The position numbers and the translations under genes are program-made. Below, one piece after another: positions 5,827 through 22,521 of a stretch of DNA of 22,600 bases; position 1 is the stretch's first letter; each line of letters begins with the position of its first letter. Under the pieces are notes generated by a model. The model saw nothing but the letters and a program-made list of their open reading frames with translations. It was not told the DNA's origin and did not search any database. Source of the DNA: a virus; the IMG/VR virus record IMGVR_UViG_3300020205_001405, positions 1 to 22,600 of that record; one strand, 5' to 3'.

Positions 5827-6669
5827 TTATCTCACCGGTAGTTTGACTTGACCATCGCGATAAGCATCGCCACGTTGCTTGCCATCGCCCAAATTCTTCA
5901 AGAGCATCAGCGCCTCTTTGTACTTGGTGTCGTACAAAACCATCATGTCCTGCTCGCCCTTCATGAACGTATACGCTTCAACTAAGCAGCCATACAAAAG
6001 CGCAGAGTCGAAGTTGTCCCCTAACCATGTTGTTCCTGCGTCCACAATTGACTCAGGGTAGTAGTAATAATGCAACTCTGCATAATACTGAGCGTCTGGC
6101 GTAGGGCCTAAAATGAACGACAACTCCGTCTGATTTGCAGACTGAGGGCCAAAGATGGCATAGTATTTTGGAAGGGACAACTCACGTGGGTTTGGATAAA
6201 CCTCACGTATAAAGTTGACATCCTTGTTGAGCAAATAAGTGTAGTCACCTTGGAACGTAATCGCCCCTGACACAGCACCACTATTGGCCACACTCAACGT
6301 GATTGTTGTTCCGTTGATTAAAGACACAATCGCTTCTGTACCAATACCTGTTCCAGAAGCATACTGACCAACCACAATACCCGAAGCACTGGCTACAACA
6401 ATGGTGAATGCACCAGAGGATCCTGTTGCCGTAGTGCTTACATAAGGATAAATGGCCAATGAATAGCTAGACAAGTAGTCCGTGGGGCACTCTAAATACT
6501 TGTTACCGGTCGTCAAAATACCAGTCACATTCTTACGCAAATTGGCAATTTGCACCGAATTGTAAATACGCTGCTCCGCTTGACGCGTGAACGTGTCCAA
6601 GTTATCAGTGCTGAAGCCCTGATTCTCGGTGTATGCAATGATTGCAGCTTTTAATTCCGTATATGTCAT
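5827..6669 (-). CDS. Head-to-tail adaptor protein with an inserted beta domain
   Basis: The 280-residue product begins MTYTELKAAIIAYTENQGFS. The start is fixed by an ATGA overlap with the upstream zinc-ribbon gene; a start 14 codons earlier would overlap that gene by 46 bases. The N-terminal helices (AEQRIYNSVQIANLRKNVTG) and the C-terminal part (KDVNFIREVYPNPREL, then LHYYYYPESIV and GDNFDSALLYGCLVEAYTFMKG) match the pattern of phage adaptor proteins (SU10 or T7 gp11-like) that dock beneath the portal. Residues about 79-141 form a Gly/Ser/Thr/Val-rich segment with GIVVGQYASGTGIGTEAIV and INGTTITLSVANSGAVSG. This looks like a separate beta domain inserted into the helical adaptor. The adaptor role is good family-level inference, but I cannot name a close homologue. 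Confidence 0.8.
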   Translation of the reverse strand: MTYTELKAAIIAYTENQGFSTDNLDTFTRQAEQRIYNSVQIANLRKNVTGILTTGNKYLECPTDYLSSYSLAIYPYVSTTATGSSGAFTIVVASASGIVVGQYASGTGIGTEAIVSLINGTTITLSVANSGAVSGAITFQGDYTYLLNKDVNFIREVYPNPRELSLPKYYAIFGPQSANQTELSFILGPTPDAQYYAELHYYYYPESIVDAGTTWLGDNFDSALLYGCLVEAYTFMKGEQDMMVLYDTKYKEALMLLKNLGDGKQRGDAYRDGQVKLPVR

Positions 6670-6995
6670 ATGATGCTCGTTTTGACCGGTGAAAGCACCG
6701 CGGCAGCCCACAAAGGCTTCGCATAGGGCATCGGCATCATCCCAATACTAGCAAACGAAGTATCAGCCGTGAACCCGACGTAGACGGTAACCGCAAGTCT
6801 ACTCTCTGGGCGAGGCTGATGCAAGGCCTGTGGCTCATTTATCGTTCGCTTTGGTTCCAACTGTGGGTGCTTAGGCTCATAGCACTCAGGACAAACTTTA
6901 AAGCCTGTCCATTCCTTGATAAGCGTATTGAGTTTGTACCGTTGGCCACACCTGTCGCACAGCGCAATTGCAAATTTGCCTGATACATAGGCCAT
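6666..6995 (-). CDS. Small zinc-ribbon protein
   Basis: This 109-residue protein has a four-cysteine zinc site near its N-terminus: C13-X2-C16, then C35-X2-C38, the second pair in the context KVCPECYEPKHP. It resembles a zinc ribbon. The remaining 65 residues are Pro-rich and then moderately hydrophobic, with no recognised domain. An AGAGG site lies about 6 bases before the ATG and just 3 bases separate it from the connector gene. Its stop overlaps the adaptor start as ATGA, so the two proteins are made in a fixed ratio. It may bind a virion protein or nucleic acid. Small zinc ribbons in tail modules are known, but their role is mostly unclear. Confidence 0.82.
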   Translation of the reverse strand: MAYVSGKFAIALCDRCGQRYKLNTLIKEWTGFKVCPECYEPKHPQLEPKRTINEPQALHQPRPESRLAVTVYVGFTADTSFASIGMMPMPYAKPLWAAAVLSPVKTSII

Positions 6996-6998
6996 GGG

Positions 6999-7676
6999 TT
7001 ACCTCTGCGTGTACGTAGGTACCACAAAGAAGCCTGAACGCTCACGGTCTTCAGAAGCTGCACGCATAAACTCTTCTTCGTACATCTGCTTAAGCAGCAT
7101 GACGCGATCAGGCGCTTTCTTGACCGACAGATAGTACGCCAAAGCCGCTACCAAGCACGGCAGGAAGCGGAAAGAGATGTCCGCTGTATTGCTAAACCCA
7201 CCAGCATTGTCCATGCGACGAATTGCATAGTAGACAAACGTCCACGTCTGCGTTGCATCAGGAGATGGGTACAGAAACACCTTAGCCGGCACCGTGCGTT
7301 GAATGTAGTACTGCGCAGGGCGTGACTGAGTCAACTTATTGGGCACATGGAGCCACTCAGCGCGGCCTATGCGGTCAATTGTGATGTCCTGCTGGGTAGA
7401 CTGGCCTGCATTGGTCCGAATCACGGCGGAGAGGCCATCAATCGTATCTGAGGGCAGGTCATACTCGTACACACCCGGCGTCAGCACCTGCTGGCGCTGC
7501 TCAATCGTCCACAAATTAAGACCGCGATTAGCCCACTCTGCAAAAATCAAGTTGACGGAGCGTAGCGCCGTCTTCATGTCGTAACCGTCGCGCACCTCAA
7601 TACCGCAGCGCTCATACGCCTCAGCTATGAGGTCGTCAAACTGCAGATCGAAATCGGATACGCCGGAAACAGCCAT
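6999..7676 (-). CDS. Head-tail connector or DNA-stabilising tail accessory protein (P22 gp4-like fold suspected)
   Basis: This is a 225-residue protein. The N-terminal segment IAEAYERCGIEVRDGYDMKTALRSVNLIFAEWANRGLNLW (residues about 17-56) is the helical pattern typical of head-completion proteins that plug the portal after packaging, such as P22 gp4. A beta-rich middle (VLTPGVYEYDLPSD, YYIQRTVPAKVFLYPSP) and a helical C-terminus follow. ATG follows the upstream TGA by one base (TGATATG) with no good ribosome binding site, so translation is probably coupled. Its place just before the zinc-ribbon and adaptor genes fits assembly of the portal-tail junction. The assignment rests on pattern recognition of the family; a profile search would confirm or reject it. 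Confidence 0.78.
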   Translation of the reverse strand: MAVSGVSDFDLQFDDLIAEAYERCGIEVRDGYDMKTALRSVNLIFAEWANRGLNLWTIEQRQQVLTPGVYEYDLPSDTIDGLSAVIRTNAGQSTQQDITIDRIGRAEWLHVPNKLTQSRPAQYYIQRTVPAKVFLYPSPDATQTWTFVYYAIRRMDNAGGFSNTADISFRFLPCLVAALAYYLSVKKAPDRVMLLKQMYEEEFMRAASEDRERSGFFVVPTYTQR

Positions 7677-7677
7677 A

Positions 7678-7884
7678 TCAATAGATCATTGCTGTGCGGG
7701 CACGGGCTGCACCAACACCACGGACGGCAACTTTGTCACCATGAACGCTCTTTTTAACGTTCTCGCTAAGCGTTTCACCTTGTGATTGGCCAACACCCGC
7801 AACCATGCCGCCTTTAGCAAAGCCTTTTTTGGCAATGCCTTCGCCTTTTTTAGCAAGGCCACCATCTTTGTATCCATGTTTCAT
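7678..7884 (-). CDS. Small Lys/Gly-rich protein with GGMV motif (68 aa)
   Basis: This 68-residue basic protein begins MKHGYKDGGLAKKGEGIAKK, followed by FAKGGMVAGVGQ. Lys-Gly-rich segments are repeated in the first 30 residues, and the rest includes an acidic-polar stretch and an Arg/Ala-rich end. AAAGGA sits about 7 bases before the ATG. It belongs to the cluster of four small genes between the head and tail modules. Short phage proteins with K-GG-M/L-V motifs are common in aquatic phage genomes but uncharacterised. A minor virion or DNA-associated role is possible. A second frame on the same strand is also open here because of the Lys/Ala repeats; I take it as a shadow. Confidence 0.72.
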   Translation of the reverse strand: MKHGYKDGGLAKKGEGIAKKGFAKGGMVAGVGQSQGETLSENVKKSVHGDKVAVRGVGAARARTAMIY

Positions 7885-7888
7885 TTTG

Positions 7889-8131
7889 CTATCCTTTTAA
7901 AGTTGTTGCCATTAAACGATCTAACTTTTCGTCCAATCTGTCTAACCTGTCCAAAACACGGTTGATGTCTGCATGGACTTCGGCTTTGGTCACATATTCC
8001 TTGGCAATTTCTTCGCGTGTACGATTGAGCAGGATCTGAAGACGATTAATCTCAGATGCCTTGTCGCGCAATACCCAACCCACGAATCCTATACCTGCCG
8101 TTAGGATCATGTTCCAAACAACGCCTTCCAT
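7889..8131 (-). CDS. Small membrane-anchored coiled-coil protein, holin- or spanin-like possibility
   Basis: The 80-residue protein has one likely membrane segment at residues about 4-21 (VVWNMILTAGIGFVGWVL). After a short Arg/Asp step comes a long heptad-like helix, ending in ADINRVLDRLDRLDEKLDRL. This one-segment plus coiled-coil design is seen in small phage lysis or virion-membrane proteins (the XhlA type has the reverse order). Its ATG directly abuts the TAA of the upstream gene (TAAATG), so it is translationally coupled. A lysis role is only a guess: no endolysin gene is seen in the window apart from the virion transglycosylase domain. The topology and coiled coil themselves are clear. 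Confidence 0.75.
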   Translation of the reverse strand: MEGVVWNMILTAGIGFVGWVLRDKASEINRLQILLNRTREEIAKEYVTKAEVHADINRVLDRLDRLDEKLDRLMATTLKG

Positions 8132-12724: not shown

Positions 12725-13183
12725 TTACATGTGCAGAATGTCATCTGGGTCGCTAATACGAGCCAGAATTTCGTCATCATTGAGAATACGGATCTCTCCG
12801 CCATCAATGCCCATACGTGCGCCTGCGTAACGACCAAAAATGATCCAATCGCCTTCTTTACACCAAGGACCGTCCGGAAACTTGTCGGTGTCTTTGTAAG
12901 CGAGTGGGCCAACGGCCAAAACGTAAGCACATGTGGTTGTGAGTTGCTGTCGTTCCAAGGTTTCTTCGGCAAGTTCAATGCCGCCCTTGGTTTTCTTAGC
13001 GCCTCTGTAGGGCAACACGACAATCCGCCAGCCGGTAGGCTGTGGAAGGTGGTCCTTGATGTTTTCGATGCGTTGCTCTTTTTCTGCCGCTTCAATCTTG
13101 GCAGCCTCAGCAGCAGAAGCTTCAGCGGCGGCTTTTTCAACCGCTTCCTCAGCCCATCGTTTCTCTAATGCAGTCATTTCCAT
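12725..13183 (-). CDS. GroES-like co-chaperonin with N-terminal coiled coil
   Basis: This 152-residue protein has two parts. Residues 1-45 are an Ala/Glu/Lys-rich helix likely to form a coiled coil. Residues about 47-145 match the cpn10 pattern: PTGWRIVVLPY, then a mobile-loop-like GAKKTKGGIELAEE (compare GGIVL in GroES), VLAVGPLAY, WCKEGDWIIFGRYAG and GEIRILNDDEILARI. It should bind the host GroEL ring and help fold phage proteins, most likely the capsid protein, as T4 gp31 does. An AAGGA site lies upstream of the first ATG. The gene directly precedes the scaffold and capsid genes. At 152 residues it is longer than the usual 95-100 because of the extra coil. The loop residue Glu in place of Val is notable. 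Confidence 0.9.
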   Translation of the reverse strand: MEMTALEKRWAEEAVEKAAAEASAAEAAKIEAAEKEQRIENIKDHLPQPTGWRIVVLPYRGAKKTKGGIELAEETLERQQLTTTCAYVLAVGPLAYKDTDKFPDGPWCKEGDWIIFGRYAGARMGIDGGEIRILNDDEILARISDPDDILHM

Positions 13184-13447: not shown

Positions 13448-13591
13448 TTACGCTAGTTTTACCTTCTTAAATGCATCTTTTCGGTAAACATACGTTACAC
13501 GTGGATCATTTTGTGGTGTTTTTACACGTTTTGGCGCTCCGGACATTTCCTTAGGCGCTTTTTTAGGACTTTTTGCTGCTTTGGTTTGCAT
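13448..13591 (-). CDS. Small basic protein overlapping the portal gene end (47 aa)
   Basis: The start at 13591 (MQTKAAKSPKKAPKEMSGAP) has AAGGAG 6 bases upstream. The longer open frame of 88 residues lies in the portal sequence without such a site. The 47-residue product is strongly Lys-rich and ends TYVYRKDAFKKVKLA. It overlaps the portal 3' end by 29 bases. Tiny basic proteins next to portal genes are common in phages and may bind DNA or an acidic virion protein. No family is recognised. Confidence 0.65.
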   Translation of the reverse strand: MQTKAAKSPKKAPKEMSGAPKRVKTPQNDPRVTYVYRKDAFKKVKLA

Positions 13592-15947
13592 TTTTTGCTC
13601 CTTGTTGGGCATTTCGTATGGCATCTTGTGAATTCTTCTGTGCAGCCGCCTGTTGTTGCAGTGCCAAACGAGCAGAATCAAACTGAACATCGGCCTGCTC
13701 CTTCTGTTGATCAAGGCTGATGCGCTGTTGATCCATCTGAAGCTTGGCTTGATCGCGCTGAGCGCTCTGAGAAAGTTCTTGCTTCTTCAATTCCACCAAA
13801 GGATCAGTCTGTGGACCCTGCAATTGCTGTTGCAAAGCCTTAACTTCTTGGAAACCCTGCGCAACCTTGATTGCAATCATTGCTTCACGCTGCAAAGAGG
13901 AGATAAGCTGGTCAGGGTCTGTGCCGTACTGTTGGAACAACTCGGCTTCCACCTCTTCTTCCGCCTTCAAACGGATGTGATCAAAGATGTGCTTTTGCAA
14001 AGTGACTGCAACATTAGGCATGCCCTGCATCATGGGGCTCATACCAAATAAGATATGGGTCAAGATGTGCGCATCGTGTTGCTGACCAGCAAAAGCCTTC
14101 AGTGGTGAGCCGTCCAGCGCCTGTGCATTCTCGCTTGCAGGATCCTTTGGCTTATCAACCTGCTGTGTGTTCAAAATGGTGTCGATATCACGCACACCAA
14201 TGGCTTCATACATGCGGCGATAGGCCTCATACATGTTGTGCATCTGCGGTGCGCTCTGAGCCAGTTGCAACTGCGTCTGCGCCATCGTAATACGTTGTGC
14301 AACAGAGAAGATGTTGGGGTCAGAAACAGGCAAGACATCAATGCGGTCATCAAAGTCTCGCGCCTTGATCCTGCGGCTCTCACCGGGCACATCGTATGGG
14401 TACTCAGTAGGCAAGTAGTCTGCAAAACCTTTAGCCAACAACTGAAATTCCATGCGTTGGCTGTAATGCAAACGCTTGTGGATAGCGGACATCACCGCAC
14501 TGCCCTTTTCAAGCAATGCAATCGTCGTTCCCACAGCAGCATTCTGGTTGCTGTCACCAACTTGCATATCGGTAATGCTTGCCAAACGGCGGCCAGCATC
14601 TACGCAGAAACCAAGAAGCGCAAACAAGGTCTGGCTTGGCTCTTTGTACGGCAATGGAAGTAATGATGCAGACAACTCCGCACCACCAGCGTCCATGTCC
14701 CTAAACTCACCGGGTGACAAAGGTGTATCGTCGTTCGCAATGCGCGCACCCTTGGCTTTAAAGCCTGCTGGCAGGTTAGCCAGCGTTCCAGCGTCCACCA
14801 ATTGCTGCAATGCAGAAGTAGCTGTCTTTGTCAAACCGCCAACCAAGTGCAAGAAGCCCAAGCCATACGCACCGGGGCCTTGAACCAGCAAGTAATGCAC
14901 GTAGTACTGCTTGCGGGCAAACAGGGGATCGCCCTCTTTCCAGTTACGGCGCACACCCACCACAGATTGAGAGATCTCATCAATGGTGACGATGTATGGC
15001 AGCTTGATGCCTGTCTCTTCGCCGTCTTCATCCTTGTGCTCAAAGCCCCTGATGTCCAAATCAACCAAGAACTCCAACAAACAGATCTCTTCTTCCACAC
15101 CAGTAGGATCCACGCCCGTTGTGCGGTCTGTTTCCTTCTTGATAATGCTCTGGCCAGTCTCTGCCGCAGTCGTCATCTGCGCTGTATCCAAGTACTGACC
15201 ACGGATCACTGCTTTGCGGTAATCGTTGGTGGACATCGGAACGCGGTGCGTGATCCGCTGGCACTCGCTCATCACAGAAGAGCCGGTGTACGGGATATAA
15301 AGGTTATCAGGCAGCACCAAAGCGCTCACCATGCGGCCCTTGGTCTCGTCGTAATAGACTTTCTTGAAGGCTGACCCACCAAAACCAACATAGAACAACA
15401 ACTGATCAAAGTCAGGGGTGTACTCTTCCATCACTGTCGTGATTTGGTAGTTCATGAAGTCACGCACGCGGTCCGCTTGCATCAACTTCTCACGTGTCTC
15501 CTTGCCCAGCACTTGCGTGCGCACAGGACCGCCCGCAGGCATCAATTCTTTCAGCGCTTGGGCTTGGAACTGCACAATACTCTCTGTCAAAAGTGGGTGC
15601 TGCACGCCGCACGCGCCCTTGAACGGCTTGGTACGCTCTTCAAACGTGAAGCCCAGCATCTTCATGCCCTTGCTGTACTGCTCTTCCCACTCTTTGCGTG
15701 AAGATTTGTCAGCATCAAACAGCGACATCAAGTCAGACGAGATAAGCTGCAAGACATCAGGCTCAATGATCTCGGCTAAATTGCTGTCATAGGCAACATC
15801 ATCGTCTTCTGCACCAATATTCACGACCACCGCACCGGTCTCTGCGTCAAACTCAATGTCAATATCTGACGGCAACTCATCTTCCATCTCAATGGCGACA
15901 TCGCCCCCGGGCAAGTCGTCGATTGTCATGTTCTTTTCAATTGGCAT
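13563..15947 (-). CDS. Portal protein
   Basis: The 794-residue protein forms the dodecameric ring at the capsid vertex through which DNA passes. An acidic N-terminal extension (residues 1-60, rich in Asp and Glu) precedes a helical and beta core with QYSKGMKMLGFTFEERTKPF, then FVDLDI-like strands, a wing-region-like YYVHYLLVQGPGAYGLGFLHL, and a helical stretch with GFCVDAGRRLASITDMQVGD. Residues about 700-794 are a Gln/Ala-rich coiled coil (DQAKLQMDQQRISLDQQKEQ), suggesting a barrel like that of P22 portals. AAGGA precedes the ATG by 6 bases and only 9 bases separate it from the giant gene. The length is near that of large podovirus portals. The assignment is supported by architecture and place next to terminase. 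Confidence 0.88.
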   Translation of the reverse strand: MPIEKNMTIDDLPGGDVAIEMEDELPSDIDIEFDAETGAVVVNIGAEDDDVAYDSNLAEIIEPDVLQLISSDLMSLFDADKSSRKEWEEQYSKGMKMLGFTFEERTKPFKGACGVQHPLLTESIVQFQAQALKELMPAGGPVRTQVLGKETREKLMQADRVRDFMNYQITTVMEEYTPDFDQLLFYVGFGGSAFKKVYYDETKGRMVSALVLPDNLYIPYTGSSVMSECQRITHRVPMSTNDYRKAVIRGQYLDTAQMTTAAETGQSIIKKETDRTTGVDPTGVEEEICLLEFLVDLDIRGFEHKDEDGEETGIKLPYIVTIDEISQSVVGVRRNWKEGDPLFARKQYYVHYLLVQGPGAYGLGFLHLVGGLTKTATSALQQLVDAGTLANLPAGFKAKGARIANDDTPLSPGEFRDMDAGGAELSASLLPLPYKEPSQTLFALLGFCVDAGRRLASITDMQVGDSNQNAAVGTTIALLEKGSAVMSAIHKRLHYSQRMEFQLLAKGFADYLPTEYPYDVPGESRRIKARDFDDRIDVLPVSDPNIFSVAQRITMAQTQLQLAQSAPQMHNMYEAYRRMYEAIGVRDIDTILNTQQVDKPKDPASENAQALDGSPLKAFAGQQHDAHILTHILFGMSPMMQGMPNVAVTLQKHIFDHIRLKAEEEVEAELFQQYGTDPDQLISSLQREAMIAIKVAQGFQEVKALQQQLQGPQTDPLVELKKQELSQSAQRDQAKLQMDQQRISLDQQKEQADVQFDSARLALQQQAAAQKNSQDAIRNAQQGAKNANQSSKKS

Positions 15948-15956
15948 GTTGTGTCC

Positions 15957-18900
15957 TTACAGATATCTGCGGTTATCAGTGGGCTGGCGCTCAACCATTC
16001 CACCTTTGTTGAATGGTACGCCTTTTTCTATGGCTTTAGCGGCGGTTGCTGGTGACCACACTACGCCCCAGACTGTTGGCGAATCCCCATTTGGATTTGG
16101 CAGTGTAATGGGTTTAATCTCAAATCCCGCTTTTTCTCCACCTAAGTCTTTGACGGCTTGCTTCAAGTTTGGCAAAAGTTTTTCGTACAGTGCTGGTTTA
16201 GCTGACTCTTTGCCGGGGAATGTTACAAAGTCTTGGCCTGCACGTATTGAAGACTGTATCGCATTTTTAATCAACAGTTGCATACGAACCGGAGAATTTG
16301 TTTCAAAATTAGCAAAGGGTTCCTCTAGGAAATATTTTCCTATAACAGGATCTCCTGCCCTAGGCGGTGTTATGCGGGCCTTTAAAAGTTTTTTGCGTTG
16401 GTCTATTTTTTTAATTTCTGCGTCTAACGCAGAAAGATTGCTTTTTGTTTTTTGTAACAATGGATCAGTATCTGGCATGGCTACAAATCGAGTAGTTAGG
16501 TCGCTAGACTCCTGCATTAGCTTTGTTTGCTTATCCAACAAGTTGTCTAATTCTTTTTGGTCTTTTTCTACAGAACCGCCTTTAGGGCCTAGTACTTTCA
16601 TGTCCTTAGAAAGGTCGGACTGCAGTTCATGTACGTGACGGCCTTTTAACTGCTGGCCATTCATGTCAACCGTATGTTCTGTAAACCGAGAAAAACCAAT
16701 TGGCATGTTTTCACTATTAGTAGCTTGACGATGCCTACCCCCGTAACCGGTAAACGGTTGCAATGCTTCCTCTAGTTTGCGAAAATCTGGACGTAAGCTT
16801 TGTTGGATTTTTTCTAAAGCCGATTTAACTCCTTTTTCTATTGGCGTAGAAATGTCTTTTAATTCTTTTTGTAAAACATCATCATCAAAAGCTCTATTAG
16901 CAACGCTTTGTGTACGAGGCTGCATTACTCCGCCGGGCCCCATTGGTATTGGTTCAAGGAAACCGTTTCTTGTCATATACCCAGTGACATCTATTGGCTG
17001 GCCCCCAAGTGCAACTAATTTATCTGAGCCTTTTTGCATTAGCTCTTGTACTAATTTTGGCTCTTCTGTTACCCTAAAATTGTTTTCTACTACTCGTTTT
17101 GCAAGACCATTTGGCATTCCCTCTGTTGCAACGGCTGCACGGCGATCAAGTTCTCTCCAATAATTAAAGCCATCTTTGTTGTAAGAAAGTGGAAAGCTAA
17201 TTAAAGCTCTAGCTTCGTCTAACTCATCGCTTATTTTGCCAAATCTTGTAACTGTTGGAAGAGCATCTTGCAATCTCTGCTGTAACATGCCAAATTCAGC
17301 AACTCTTACAGCAAGTGGACTCTTTGCTAAAAATTCATTTATATTTTTAATTTTTTCAGGGTTAGGAAAACCATAAAGAACATTGGTTAGCTCTTGTTTA
17401 ACTTTTGCTATTTCATCCATATTTGAAAGCAGTTCAGGCGATTCTCTTAAATACAAATTCATTGCCCCTGTTATTTTTTTGTCTGGAAAGAAAACGTTAT
17501 CTGACGAGTCATACATAGAACCTGTTGAAGGAATCTCTGCAGAACGGAAACGGTTTGGCGAATATGTATTGGCCAACGCTTCTTGCAACACGGCCGGCGT
17601 TACTTTATCTTTTGGGCCCAATCCAACCAGTGCCGCTTCAAGGCGCGCAACATCCTGCTCACGGAACTTGCTCTTGACCTGATTGATCAACTGCTCCTTC
17701 TGTGCCGGACCTTTCATGCTCGCTGCAAACTCATCCAAGCGCCCAACAAACGGAAACTCTGCACTAACCGGCACTGCTACAGGAGGTGCAACGGGGGCCG
17801 CAACGGGTAATTGGGCTGCAGGCCTTGTTTCAGCAACTGCTGGCGGTTCCGCTACTACCTCTGGCGTAGGATTTTGACGCCTGATTGCAAAAGGACGAGG
17901 ACGAGCCGCAGCTTCTTCAAACAAACGTAACTGCGTTTGCGCATCTGCCGGCAGTCTAGCAATGTTTTGTTCTGCTTCAAGAAGCGCGGGCCTTGGAGCA
18001 AGAGATTGTGGCAGTCTTCCCGCCGCTACATCTGCTGCAATCTGTCGTTGATTAACGCCTGCCATGTTATCAAACACCGCATTAATAGCGCGCTGCTCGG
18101 CTTCTTCTTGAGCAGCCGTTCTTGTTGGTGCTTCAACCCTCTGACCAGTCATCAAGTCGGTCATTCCGGGCTTCTCGGCTCTGCCTGCCTTGAAACCAGC
18201 CAACGCATCCTTTGCTGCGACCTTCAAAGCCTGTGCACCTTCAATGATCTTGCCGGGAGCCATCATCCCCGCACCAAACTCACCAAGGTAATGAAAACCT
18301 TTGAGTGTCGGGTCCTCGGTCATGGGCTTGCGAATGCCGGCTTCCGTCGCTTTTTCCTTCAGGTACTCGCTACCCAGCATTGGCTTCTGGTTGCTATAAC
18401 CAAAAGGACGCATCGCCATGGTTGTCAAGTCAACAGGCAAACCAGCAAGGTCGTAAGGCACATCATTGATGCCCGCCACAATCGCTGGATAGGCTGTGCC
18501 CGTGTTCAAGGCATTGGAAATATTTCCCGCTTTGCGACCAATACCGGACTTGGAGGTAATAAACGCCGCTGTGCTGGCCTGCTCCCTAGCTGCTGCTTCT
18601 TGGGCCGCGATCCGTTCTATCTGCTGCGGGGTCAGGCGCTCGCCCTCTTCAGGACTTCCGTCTGCACGGTGAACAATACCGCCATGCGCATACCCGTCAT
18701 ACTCCACATCGCCAACATAACGATCTGGGCGTGAACCCATTTTGTTCATTTCCAAAATATTCTTTGGATCAACACCCAACTGCTGCATCGATACCTCAAG
18801 CGGCGTTGCTTTTAACTGCTCAGGTGACAAGTTGCTCCGCACACGAACCAACTCCGCCTGCACTTCACCCGGCATATGGCGATACAAAGTCTCCCCAACA

Positions 18901-21005
18901 TACCTGTCAGGGTCACTCACCACATATTTCATGTACTTATCCGCCTGCAAACGTGTTGTGAAGTTGTCCGCAACACTAGCAAGGTTTGGATACGCTCTTT
19001 CCATCTCCCGAATGACGTTAGCATTCACCGTAGGATCAGGGTTGTACTTGCCCTGACGCGCCTTGACGTAAGCAATGAAAGCTCCGGGATTTGCACCCTC
19101 CGTAAAACCTTCTGCCGACTGAATTGCATGCTGGCCTTCGTGCAACACAGTCCCGCGGACCATGCTCCTCGCATCATCTTCAGGCAAATCACGTATCCGA
19201 CCACTGATCATGTTGTTCTGAACATCAAAATTACCCATGGCCAACGGCGCACCCTTGCGCTTTGTTGTCTCCATCATCACCTGAGGCATGTCATAGGTCG
19301 GGTAAATGCTCTCCAACTCAGGATGTTTAAGCATCTCGTAGAAATTACGCGGCACAGAAGCTGTCTTTTGCTGCAAAACCGCCGGCGCATCACTGATTTC
19401 TTCAAGCAAATTACCGCGGTTATCAACCAAAGTTAAATTCTGCGCACGAATCTGCTCAGGAGACAAACCTTGAGCTTGCAGGTCCGCGTGCCGCGCTGCT
19501 GCTTCCGGCCTTGCACGAACAAACATAAACTTAGGTTGAGCCGGGGCTGTGAACATATCCAGCAATGTGCCGGGGCGCTCACCCATCAAAGCAGCATTAA
19601 ATTCCTGACCCGCCATATTACCCAGCATCTTTGCCGCTTTTCCGCCGCCAAGAGCTTGAACAGCAGGAGCCATCTGCAAAGCTGTGCCCGCTGCAAAAGC
19701 AGGATTGGCTACATCACGAATTTCTTGATACTTCGGGTGCAAGACACTGAAACCCATTTGATCGGGCCGTGTGCCAAGGGCCCCGGCTACCGCTGCGTAG
19801 GTCTTGGGATCGGGTAATGTGTTGACATCCCGCATCGCAGCAAGTCTCCTTGCCGCCTCGCCTTGCTTTCTGATATTCGGATTGCCAAAGGATGGCTTCG
19901 TTAAATCCTCACCTTCTTCGGGGCTGCCATTAGCGCGCCGGAGAGGAGGCAACCCAACAGAAATTGGTTCAGAAATTGTCTCAGAACCTGTATCGGTTTC
20001 AGGGTTTAAACTTTCATAAGCGGCTTTGTCTAAATCCCTTAGTGGATCCTTGCCTGTTACGTACTGATAAGTCCCATAACCTGCATTTAAAAGAACACCT
20101 AAGGGGCTAAGAGGGCGAGCTCGAACTAAAGCAGGGTTGTCCGAAATAAGCTGATTAAATCTTTCCATTAGATTTTTAGCTTTTGGCTCTTCAAAAGATT
20201 GTGACCCCTCCGTCACATAACTTTCCATCTGCTGCGGTGTTAGTCTTCTTTCTGCCCTTCTTGGTACTAATCTTTCAAACGAACTAGCTTCCCCACCATC
20301 CTTCATCATCACAGGCGTAACGCTTAGATCAAGAGAGGCTAATTTATTGACAGGCTTGTAGTTGGCAAAGAACTCTTCTGTCTCGGTAGACTTGTTCTCG
20401 TTGTATACCCGATCATCCTCTTCGTCCTGCGCATCAGCCAAAGCAGCTAAAGCAAAAGCGGCCTGATAACTGGCAGGCATGCTTTTGATATCCGGCAAGT
20501 TCTTGCCGCTGGCCATTGCCACGGTTGCCGCGGGGGCGGACTGATCGGCTTTTGCCATTGGAGGCAGGGACTCGGGCAACGGCTCACGTTCCTTTTTTGC
20601 CATTGTTTCACGTGGAACATCTTTGCCAAGAAGTCCCTTGACGCGCTGGACATACGTCCTTGTCTCTTGGGGCAGAGCTTCGGGTTTGGCACCAGAAGCT
20701 AACCATTTGTCCGTGGCTCCCGGTCCCCAGTTGTACGCAACCAAAGCTTTCTCTGTATCGCCGTACTTACCCAACATCGCTTGAAGATAGTCTCTTCCAA
20801 CCCTTGCAATCTCATCGGGGGACTTATCCTTAGCAGGGGCTACACCAAAGCCGGGATCTGTAATGGTTTTGGGCATGACCTGCATTTCACCAAGGGCACC
20901 CTTAGGACTTGTGGTCAGAGTTTTACCGTCTGCTGCGTAACGCTTGCCGCGGCTCTCCGCTTGCTTAACAGCAGCAACTATCTCTTCAAAAGTCTGTTGG
21001 GCCAT
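15957..21005 (-). CDS. Giant virion protein: lytic transglycosylase domain plus polyvalent-type regions
   Basis: This 1682-residue protein starts with an SLT-type lytic transglycosylase domain (residues about 1-125): catalytic E17 in QAESRG, GALGEMQVMP at 36-45 and AYNWGPG at 90-96. It would cut peptidoglycan glycan strands during DNA entry. A zincin-like HEGQH motif lies at 622-626, in LHEGQHAIQSAEGF, and HELQSD at 1459-1464 resembles the ELQSD region of phage large polyvalent proteins. The C-terminus reads FNKGGMVERQPTDNRRYL. There is no signal peptide. Two R(A)(N/D)GSPEEGE segments (about 356-366 and 780-788) mark linkers. AAGGA lies about 9 bases before the ATG. The gene sits between terminase and portal, an unusual place for an ejection protein. 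The role as an injected internal virion protein is inference; the proteolytic activity of the HExxH region is unproven. Confidence 0.85.
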   Translation of the reverse strand: MAQQTFEEIVAAVKQAESRGKRYAADGKTLTTSPKGALGEMQVMPKTITDPGFGVAPAKDKSPDEIARVGRDYLQAMLGKYGDTEKALVAYNWGPGATDKWLASGAKPEALPQETRTYVQRVKGLLGKDVPRETMAKKEREPLPESLPPMAKADQSAPAATVAMASGKNLPDIKSMPASYQAAFALAALADAQDEEDDRVYNENKSTETEEFFANYKPVNKLASLDLSVTPVMMKDGGEASSFERLVPRRAERRLTPQQMESYVTEGSQSFEEPKAKNLMERFNQLISDNPALVRARPLSPLGVLLNAGYGTYQYVTGKDPLRDLDKAAYESLNPETDTGSETISEPISVGLPPLRRANGSPEEGEDLTKPSFGNPNIRKQGEAARRLAAMRDVNTLPDPKTYAAVAGALGTRPDQMGFSVLHPKYQEIRDVANPAFAAGTALQMAPAVQALGGGKAAKMLGNMAGQEFNAALMGERPGTLLDMFTAPAQPKFMFVRARPEAAARHADLQAQGLSPEQIRAQNLTLVDNRGNLLEEISDAPAVLQQKTASVPRNFYEMLKHPELESIYPTYDMPQVMMETTKRKGAPLAMGNFDVQNNMISGRIRDLPEDDARSMVRGTVLHEGQHAIQSAEGFTEGANPGAFIAYVKARQGKYNPDPTVNANVIREMERAYPNLASVADNFTTRLQADKYMKYVVSDPDRYVGETLYRHMPGEVQAELVRVRSNLSPEQLKATPLEVSMQQLGVDPKNILEMNKMGSRPDRYVGDVEYDGYAHGGIVHRADGSPEEGERLTPQQIERIAAQEAAAREQASTAAFITSKSGIGRKAGNISNALNTGTAYPAIVAGINDVPYDLAGLPVDLTTMAMRPFGYSNQKPMLGSEYLKEKATEAGIRKPMTEDPTLKGFHYLGEFGAGMMAPGKIIEGAQALKVAAKDALAGFKAGRAEKPGMTDLMTGQRVEAPTRTAAQEEAEQRAINAVFDNMAGVNQRQIAADVAAGRLPQSLAPRPALLEAEQNIARLPADAQTQLRLFEEAAARPRPFAIRRQNPTPEVVAEPPAVAETRPAAQLPVAAPVAPPVAVPVSAEFPFVGRLDEFAASMKGPAQKEQLINQVKSKFREQDVARLEAALVGLGPKDKVTPAVLQEALANTYSPNRFRSAEIPSTGSMYDSSDNVFFPDKKITGAMNLYLRESPELLSNMDEIAKVKQELTNVLYGFPNPEKIKNINEFLAKSPLAVRVAEFGMLQQRLQDALPTVTRFGKISDELDEARALISFPLSYNKDGFNYWRELDRRAAVATEGMPNGLAKRVVENNFRVTEEPKLVQELMQKGSDKLVALGGQPIDVTGYMTRNGFLEPIPMGPGGVMQPRTQSVANRAFDDDVLQKELKDISTPIEKGVKSALEKIQQSLRPDFRKLEEALQPFTGYGGRHRQATNSENMPIGFSRFTEHTVDMNGQQLKGRHVHELQSDLSKDMKVLGPKGGSVEKDQKELDNLLDKQTKLMQESSDLTTRFVAMPDTDPLLQKTKSNLSALDAEIKKIDQRKKLLKARITPPRAGDPVIGKYFLEEPFANFETNSPVRMQLLIKNAIQSSIRAGQDFVTFPGKESAKPALYEKLLPNLKQAVKDLGGEKAGFEIKPITLPNPNGDSPTVWGVVWSPATAAKAIEKGVPFNKGGMVERQPTDNRRYL

Positions 21006-21051: not shown

Positions 21052-22521
21052 TCAATAATACTCAACCGGTGATGTATCAGGCTCAGTCTCTTCATTATCG
21101 TCAGACTCCAACGCAATAAAGTTGCCCGCCCTAAATCTCGTCCAAGCCATCACCGCGGTATCCACTTGGTCGTCATTGTTGCCATTAGGAAAAGCCGCGC
21201 ATTCCTCTACAAGGTCCTCGGCCCACTCCTTACCCTCAGGATACCAGATCATTCCAGACTCCAAGAGCGGAGCAACAGCATTGGCTCGGCTGACCTTATC
21301 TTGTCCTGACTTACGACCACCGGGCGAGAACATCGTGACAGGGATGCCCATCTTCCGTAGTTCCTGCTGGAGCGGCGTACCAGTAGCCTTGGCTTCAATC
21401 AAAACATTATCAGGCTGCCAATACATGTATTCATCCTTGGCCATTCGCTTGAGTTCAGGAAAGTCCCAACGACCCTTGCGCACGTTCAAGAGCATCAGAT
21501 TCGCACCAGAGTCAGCATCAGGATAGAAGACGCCCCACGTCGAGATAACAGAAAAGTCAGCAGTCTCTTTCTTTGAGTATGCTGTGTCGTAGACCTGAAT
21601 CAAATACTCACACTCTGGTGGATCATCGTACTTCCACTTGCGCCACCAGTTACGCTTCAGGATCGCACCCTCATCATTCGTTGGCTGCTGCTGCCACTGG
21701 GCGTTCCACTTCTTCAAGCCAATAGAAACCTTGACCTTTTCTAATTCATCAAGGCTCCAGTAGTCAGGCCACAGGGGTTTACCGGACGGCAGGATGGCAG
21801 GGAACTCCAAGATCTCCCACTGGTCAGACTTTAAATAACCCTGTTGTTTCAAAAGGCGACCAGACAGGTCATCTGTCTTCCAACGCGTATTAATAACAAT
21901 GATCGCGCCGCCCGGTTGCAGACGCTGGCGAGGACCAGACGTGTACCACTCCCACGTGTTCTCCATCGCAGTTTCAGACACAGCATCCTGCTCGTCCAAA
22001 ATATCATCCAGCACGACAACATTACCACCACGGCCCGTCATCGCACCGCCCTTACCAATGAAGAACGCTTCACCGCCTTGGGCCGTGTTCCACCGACCGG
22101 CGGCCTTGCTGTCAACAGAGAGCGCCATCTTTGGGAACAACTCCTTGTACTTCTCGTCATCGACAAGGTTACGGATCATCCTACCGAAGCGTTGAGCAAG
22201 CTCCGCGGTGTGGGAGCCGACAATGAGTTTAGTGTCAGGGTTCCGGCCCATCAGATATGCTGGGAACAGATAACTCCCAAGCTGGGACTTGCCGTGACGG
22301 GGAGGCATCGCGATCATCAGGCGTTTGCACTCGCCGGTTATTACCCGATCAAGGGCTTTGGCGATTCGTTTGTGGTGTTCCCCAACGAGCATCTCGGGCC
22401 AGACGTACTGACAGAAGGACAGAAAGTCAGTGGTTGCACGCTCCTGTGCTTCAAGAAGTTTTAAGCGTAGCTCAAGGCGTAGCTGTTCGTCTTGGACATC
22501 GTCGGGTTTTGTAGAGTGCAT
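21052..22521 (-). CDS. Terminase large subunit (packaging ATPase and nuclease)
   Basis: This 489-residue motor protein pumps and cuts DNA at the portal. The ATPase has a Walker A-like PPRHGKSQ (residues 73-80), Walker B VVVLDDI (168-174, followed by an acidic stretch) and motif III INTRW (210-214). The C-terminal RNase H-like nuclease shows acidic residues in QVYDTAYS, VLIEAKATG and DDQVDTAVMAW. The length is normal for the family. The listed ATG (MHSTKPDDVQ) has no good ribosome binding site. The frame stays open upstream to the window edge at 22600 without a stop, so translation may begin further upstream, outside the window. The 46-base gap after its stop leads into the giant gene. No terminase small subunit gene is visible; it may lie beyond the edge. 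Confidence 0.95.
   Translation of the reverse strand: MHSTKPDDVQDEQLRLELRLKLLEAQERATTDFLSFCQYVWPEMLVGEHHKRIAKALDRVITGECKRLMIAMPPRHGKSQLGSYLFPAYLMGRNPDTKLIVGSHTAELAQRFGRMIRNLVDDEKYKELFPKMALSVDSKAAGRWNTAQGGEAFFIGKGGAMTGRGGNVVVLDDILDEQDAVSETAMENTWEWYTSGPRQRLQPGGAIIVINTRWKTDDLSGRLLKQQGYLKSDQWEILEFPAILPSGKPLWPDYWSLDELEKVKVSIGLKKWNAQWQQQPTNDEGAILKRNWWRKWKYDDPPECEYLIQVYDTAYSKKETADFSVISTWGVFYPDADSGANLMLLNVRKGRWDFPELKRMAKDEYMYWQPDNVLIEAKATGTPLQQELRKMGIPVTMFSPGGRKSGQDKVSRANAVAPLLESGMIWYPEGKEWAEDLVEECAAFPNGNNDDQVDTAVMAWTRFRAGNFIALESDDNEETEPDTSPVEYY

Follow-up and report, generated by a model that had tools for sequence, protein, structure and literature searches.

Polyvalent proteins of phages and conjugative elements were described by Iyer, Burroughs, Anand, de Souza and Aravind (Iyer et al., 2017; PMC5512222), and passages of that study deal with packaging in portal/terminase phages and propose processing by zincins. 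Polymorphic phage toxins were proposed in a study of MuF proteins in temperate phages (PMC5576092). Cargo-loading peptides are described for encapsulins, which have HK97-fold shells (PMC8346489). Here we compare with these systems a large protein encoded between the terminase and portal genes of a virus, the main features of which are interchangeable units, a repeated linker and a common C-terminal peptide.

The window, that is, the whole stretch of viral DNA that was analysed, comprises 22.6 kb (positions 1 to 22,600 of IMG/VR record IMGVR_UViG_3300020205_001405) and is part of a phage late region. The original prediction placed a 1682-residue open reading frame between terminase and portal, and PHROG matches of both neighbours confirmed this arrangement (Table 1). 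We found 55 relatives of the protein in IMG/VR, indicating that the features of the reading frame are more than chance. The gene had also been thought to interrupt a packaging block. This was incorrect, because the terminase-portal gap is a regular accessory slot in relatives; it is empty in CRP-901 and Pag-Yong1 and is filled by other genes in DSL-LC04, HTVC027P and HTVC023P. The portal protein of the window was 64% identical to that of the lake phage genome DSL-LC04, 46-47% identical to those of the pelagiphages HTVC027P and HTVC023P, and 38-39% identical to those of the Roseobacter phages CRP-901/902. The phage group that carries the slot protein is aquatic. HTVC027P is a cultured phage; DSL-LC04 and the phage of the window are known from metagenomes. 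In Caulobacter phage GB2A, the gap holds a tRNA-Val gene (L275:5329-5402). Elsewhere in the window, the minus strand encodes a GroES-like co-chaperonin within the head gene block (12725-13183; Cpn10, E=6e-10) and two separate genes that each match the SU10 adaptor family (5827-6711 and 6999-7676).

Table 1. Positions in the window of the slot protein gene, its neighbours and the features of the encoded protein.
Feature	Position	Strand	Basis or remark
Terminase large subunit gene	21052..22521	minus	phrog_38, E=5e-113
Modular slot protein gene, 1682 aa, ATG start	15957..21005	minus	Order of parts: SLT unit, linker, B unit (HEGQH), linker, C module, D module (HELQSD), tail
SLT lytic transglycosylase domain, residues 7-105 (E17, GALGEMQVMP, AYNWGPG)	20691..20987	minus	Pfam PF01464
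Degenerate junction after SLT unit, residues 236-260 (KDGG...LTPQQM)	20226..20300	minus	Sequence; relatives have a module border near residue 241
Junction linker RRANGSPEEGE, residues 356-366, without GG part	19908..19940	minus	Comparison with relatives
B1 domain, residues about 366-459	19629..19910	minus	N-terminal part of separate genes in other phages
Zincin-like region, residues about 555-735	18801..19343	minus	HExxH and conserved Glu; low-confidence model; weak Pfam matches of homologues
HEGQH, residues 622-626	19128..19142	minus	Invariant in 22 homologues except third position (G or A)
E714, candidate for third ligand of zinc	18864..18866	minus	Invariant in homologues
Full junction linker GGIVHRADGSPEEGER, residues 775-790	18636..18683	minus	Comparison with relatives
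C module, residues 801-935	18201..18605	minus	Found in most architectures
D module, comprising a helical part (about 1085-1415) and the ELQSD domain (about 1430-1665), which has a coiled-coil insert	16005..17753	minus	AlphaFold2; 46-sequence alignment
HELQSD motif, residues 1459-1464	16614..16631	minus	Alignment
C-terminal tail GGMVERQPTDNRRYL, 15 residues, 1668-1682	15960..16004	minus	Disordered in D model
TAAGGA, stop codon overlapping Shine-Dalgarno-like site for portal gene	15954..15959	minus	Sequence
Portal gene	13563..15947	minus	phrog_1216, E=1e-38

The SLT domain expected at the N-terminus was borne out by the Pfam match (E=2.2e-13; 50.2 bits against a cut-off of 21.3), which includes the catalytic Glu region. 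The SLT unit as a whole, defined by comparison with relatives, spans residues 1-241. No Pfam match at E up to 1 was found in the rest of the 1682 residues, and the PHROG matches of the protein, several of which are virion proteins, all fell on the SLT part. In two relatives of approximately 61 kb (G001 and G002), the slot protein gene gave the sole SLT match; in DSL-LC04, no SLT match was found and the slot protein is PcfJ-like. G001 and G002 further possess, far from the slot, a block of large internal-protein candidates that includes a match to a DNA ejection protein, suggesting that the slot protein is an additional internal protein candidate. We also noted in G001 a 1161-aa internal or tape-measure-like protein with AKGGIAEL, GGEVQHFADGG and GGIAGLAQGG repeats (L281:14979-18461; G001 33979-37461), and such GG-hydrophobic motifs may therefore be common to the internal proteins of these phages. 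A 72-aa reading frame with two GG motifs (KDGGLAKKGEGIAKKGFAKGGMVAG) at 7681-7896 on the minus strand of the window, which is also present in G001 and G002, had no PHROG match.

The B unit (residues about 348-790 by comparison with relatives) carries the HEGQH motif at the predicted residues. All of 22 homologues have H622, E623, H626 and E714, including two with an identity of only 38%. With respect to the zincin fold and third ligand to be expected there, E714 provides a conserved candidate for the ligand; the fold was left unconfirmed by a structure model with a pLDDT of 41. The order of elements in this model, namely three strands, the HExxH helix and a later helix with E714, is that expected for the minimal zincin core, as described in a passage of PMC5512222. 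Stand-alone homologues of the B unit (L226 and L227) gave weak, below-cut-off matches to LPD23 (E=5e-4) and Tox-MPTase2, and other homologues gave below-cut-off matches to DUF6782. The HEGQH unit is likely an active peptidase. That it is instead the remnant of a zincin that has lost catalysis, or is no zincin at all, is improbable: the absence of a significant Pfam match in this unit of the window sequence and the low pLDDT are consistent with such a relic, whereas the invariance of the four residues down to 38% identity, and the fact that the weak metallopeptidase matches of homologues span the HExxH region, argue against it. The first part of the unit, the B1 domain, may be a carrier domain of its own. 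Two short genes (L237, 5979-7221; L253, 2806-3928) have B1 at the N-terminus and a C-terminal part that resembles ADP-ribosyltransferases, in which YHGTPH...GTRNFVVF is presumably an ADP-ribosyltransferase-like motif.

Comparison with relatives placed the borders of the C module at 778-934 and assigned residues 935-1682 to the D module. The HELQSD motif, which had been predicted near residue 1459, was present, and its Q, S and D were invariant in 46 sequences with a mean column identity of about 30%. The AlphaFold2 model of the D module based on these sequences had a pLDDT of 91. No relative of the window D module was found in Pfam, PHROGs, PDB sequences, 84,980 GTDB genomes or 50,697 phage records. 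A fold search of the PDB with the model yielded no match with E up to 0.001, and in a second structural comparison the coiled-coil insert outweighed the rest. At E below 0.001, seven predicted viral proteins resembled the same model, and the annotation of one of them is large polyvalent protein associated domain. For the polyvalent match originally predicted in the C-terminal part, there is a resemblance by fold search to this annotated protein and no match in Pfam or PHROGs. The order of strands and helices after HELQSD recalls GNATs, which we treat as a lead only; no GNAT match was found for the ELQSD domain in the 46 members.

The 49 distinct full-length relatives represented 25 coarse architectures, a count that depends on the labels chosen and on metagenome assemblies, which can contain chimeras; the same units recurred across many independent contigs. 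One or two HExxH motifs, of the kinds HEGQH, HEMTH/HEVTH, HETEH, HELEH and HEMQH, were found in 33 of the 49 proteins and none in 16, and the B unit was replaced or missing in many relatives. There were three main C-terminal families; in relatives, at least two C-terminal families other than its own take the place of the D module. The HExxH and ELQSD units are thus separable in relatives and, with the SLT unit, amount to two or more unrelated domains in one chain. Accordingly, the earlier description as a multi-domain polyvalent-type protein is a fair label for this SLT-bearing product of a terminase/portal phage. We rejected a single family for the I and J types of C-terminal module, because the sole profile similarity detected was in the common 39 residues before the tail. 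We also did not classify J as PcfJ-like, since its match to the DSL-LC04 protein was unconvincing.

The borders of units repeatedly bear the linker GGxV[YH]RA[DEN]GSPxxGE, which is related to the tail and also occurs in more distant phages with unrelated flanks. The linker had a pS of 0.66 and a pN of 0.20, and where the same linker peptide recurred, it was encoded by six different DNA forms in six of six cases. The H4 unit (HETEH) is internal in some proteins; elsewhere it forms a stand-alone gene (258-274 aa) located in this slot. When both forms were aligned, the start codon of the stand-alone gene fell on the preceding internal linker and its tag, GG[MAP]VERxxxDNRRYL, fell on the following one. 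Further, the B1 domain starts genes of other phages, in which it is followed by different domains, and in the window it starts just after a linker. Together, these alignments and the position of B1 make the large protein look like whole genes fused end to end. Tandem pairs of tagged genes were observed in the terminase-portal slot of L026 (1879-8473), L073, L099, L121 and L133, the second gene encoding 244-274 aa with its own tag.

The tail, GG[MV..]VERxxxDNRRY[LM], ended every complete close relative irrespective of the C-terminal module. The DNA pattern of the whole tail was found in 95 stretches, and the pattern of a DNRRY end followed by a stop codon and GGA in at least 99 distinct places; although the GG part (GGxxER) is not included in the latter pattern, it was present in 98 of 98 in-frame DNRRY ends among the matches listed. 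After removal of the 45 residues before the tail, the tail-bearing C-termini fell into five sequence groups (ELQSD, PcfJ-like, J type, the H4 zincin-like unit and one orphan). In the AlphaFold2 model of the D module, the tail was disordered and the remainder was confident. The tail is therefore a short, conserved, disordered terminal peptide on unrelated proteins, as cargo-loading peptides are. Its synonymous sites were near saturation (pS 0.546) while the amino acids were kept (pN 0.111), indicating selection on the peptide; in the 15 codons upstream, pN/pS was 0.87. Conservation of the tail only as DNA was rejected by this test. The last six codons had a somewhat lower pS (0.43) and TAAGGA overlaps the stop codon, which leaves room for a minor contribution at the DNA level. 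Tail variants that end in AFIKAH, FIKKVL or xKYI occur with the ELQSD modules of more distant phages; AFIKAH is common to several unrelated C-terminal families, including two beyond the five. Two findings count against reading the tail as a tag, namely that it is absent from some linker-bearing slot proteins and that the variants outside the main clade differ considerably. In L065 (1-2037), the last part of the slot protein before the tag is a glycine-rich repeat stretch.

We mapped tail types on a FastTree phylogeny of 113 portal sequences, which replaced a single-linkage clustering that merged all portals. Tail type required 13 changes, compared with 36 (31-38) when shuffled, and the C-terminal family required 40, compared with 51 (42-56). 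Thus, tail type follows the phage clade and the modules do not. A distance of 9-12 nt separates the tail from the start of the portal gene, and this linkage could by itself make tail types agree with the portal tree. In about five loci, a tagged gene is not directly upstream of the portal gene (L026, L073, L099, L121 and L133; L094 repeats L026), and these tagged genes further upstream in the slot had the same tail type, although such cases are few.

The explanation that we favour, with about an even chance, is that the slot encodes variable particle cargo made of fused, exchangeable units, with the tail as the loading signal. The modularity, the geometry of fusion, the conservation of the tail as a peptide and its association with phage clade are observed, and from here on we infer loading, packaging, delivery and enzyme activities. 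Units that were once separate, namely a peptidoglycan-cutting SLT unit, a peptidase unit of zincin-like type and the ELQSD unit at the C-terminus, would have been fused end to end, and related phages would exchange such units and keep the short disordered peptide GGxVERxxxDNRRYL. This peptide would bind a component of the particle, which may be the portal, the capsid interior or another internal protein; any product encoded upstream of it would then be packaged and would accompany the DNA into the host. The SLT domain would aid passage through the wall, and host molecules would be the targets of the remaining units. The internal linkers would be remains of tags, or of a tag and the start of the next unit, after gene fusion, and may double as cleavage sites.

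Such cleavage is central to another explanation, in which the product is a polyprotein and a protease (its own zincin units or the prohead protease) recognises the linkers, perhaps also the tail, and frees effectors before or after delivery. The positions of the linkers coincide with the unit borders and their conservation is at the peptide level, most architectures possess at least one HExxH unit, and the processing by zincins proposed in PMC5512222 concerned polyvalent proteins. However, some of the 16 full-length proteins without HExxH are linker-bearing, and the linkers matched none of the protease sites tried. We consider a polyprotein rather unlikely, and proteolytic release at linkers is compatible with the cargo explanation as an addition to it. 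It is also possible that the protein belongs to the ordinary structural ejection proteins (internal core proteins) such as T7 gp16, in which case SLT serves wall passage and the remainder is structural without effector activity. The N-terminal SLT domain, the large size and the PHROG virion-protein matches, which all lie over the SLT part, are in line with this. In contrast, a DNA ejection protein and large internal or tape-measure-like proteins are encoded in a block of their own in related genomes, the turnover of HExxH and PcfJ-like units is extreme, and the DSL-LC04 slot protein is without SLT, and we therefore regard an ejection protein as unlikely.

The tail and linkers might further be conserved as DNA, either as recombination joints for module exchange or as an element that couples ribosomes to the portal gene. 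The tail adjoins the portal start, and both the TAAGGA overlap and the lower pS of the last six codons fit such a role. On the other hand, pS of 0.55-0.66 is near saturation with the amino acids kept, the recurring linker peptide differed in DNA form in every case, and the tail is retained in tagged genes that do not adjoin the portal gene. A role as DNA is thus very unlikely. The cargo explanation can be extended to a general loading system, in which a C-terminal peptide that can be transplanted, and whose variants in each clade fit a receptor in the particle, packages any enzyme encoded in the slot, and in which fusion of tagged genes gives rise to polyvalent proteins with the old tags as linkers. 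We propose this extension tentatively, as having somewhat less than an even chance.

To our knowledge, how polyvalent and other internal proteins are selected for packaging is not known in most phages. Because the tag is short, occurs on unrelated proteins in one slot and has clade variants, the choice of cargo is directly testable with one reporter fusion. If the proposal is correct, the tail and linker motifs would provide a sequence handle for injected phage effectors in uncultured phages. It would also point to the fusion of adjacent tagged genes as a route by which polyvalent proteins originate. In our searches of open-licence papers, neither the tail nor the linker was described.

Like the window protein, the polyvalent proteins in the passages of PMC5512222 considered here are large multi-domain chains of terminase/portal phages that combine lysozyme-type, zincin-like and other domains, and extensive domain shuffling is reported there for Helicobacter jhp1044. 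In contrast, the relatives of the window protein share a tail even where their end domains are unrelated, and a linker recurs at their unit borders. Neither feature is mentioned in those passages, the word linker being absent from that paper, and the D module of the window belongs to no Pfam or PHROG family. The slot protein of DSL-LC04 (WJZ48068.1, annotated as PcfJ-like) shares the terminase-portal position with the window protein and has the linker RRAEGSPEYGE; the PcfJ-like part of the chain gives a match to C-terminal modules of the I type. Unlike the window protein, it is without SLT, HExxH unit and DNRRYL tail, and the window has the ELQSD module instead of PcfJ. The cargo-loading peptides of encapsulins and the capsid-targeting sequences of T4 resemble the tail in that a short peptide is carried by unrelated cargo of an HK97-fold shell, which we take as a functional analogy only; the T4 sequences are N-terminal. 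MuF polymorphic toxins are said to be phage-encoded chains with constant and variable parts, encoded near the portal gene. No MuF domain was found in the window protein with Pfam at E up to 1, and the constant parts in its family are instead the N-terminal SLT unit, the C module and the C-terminal peptide.
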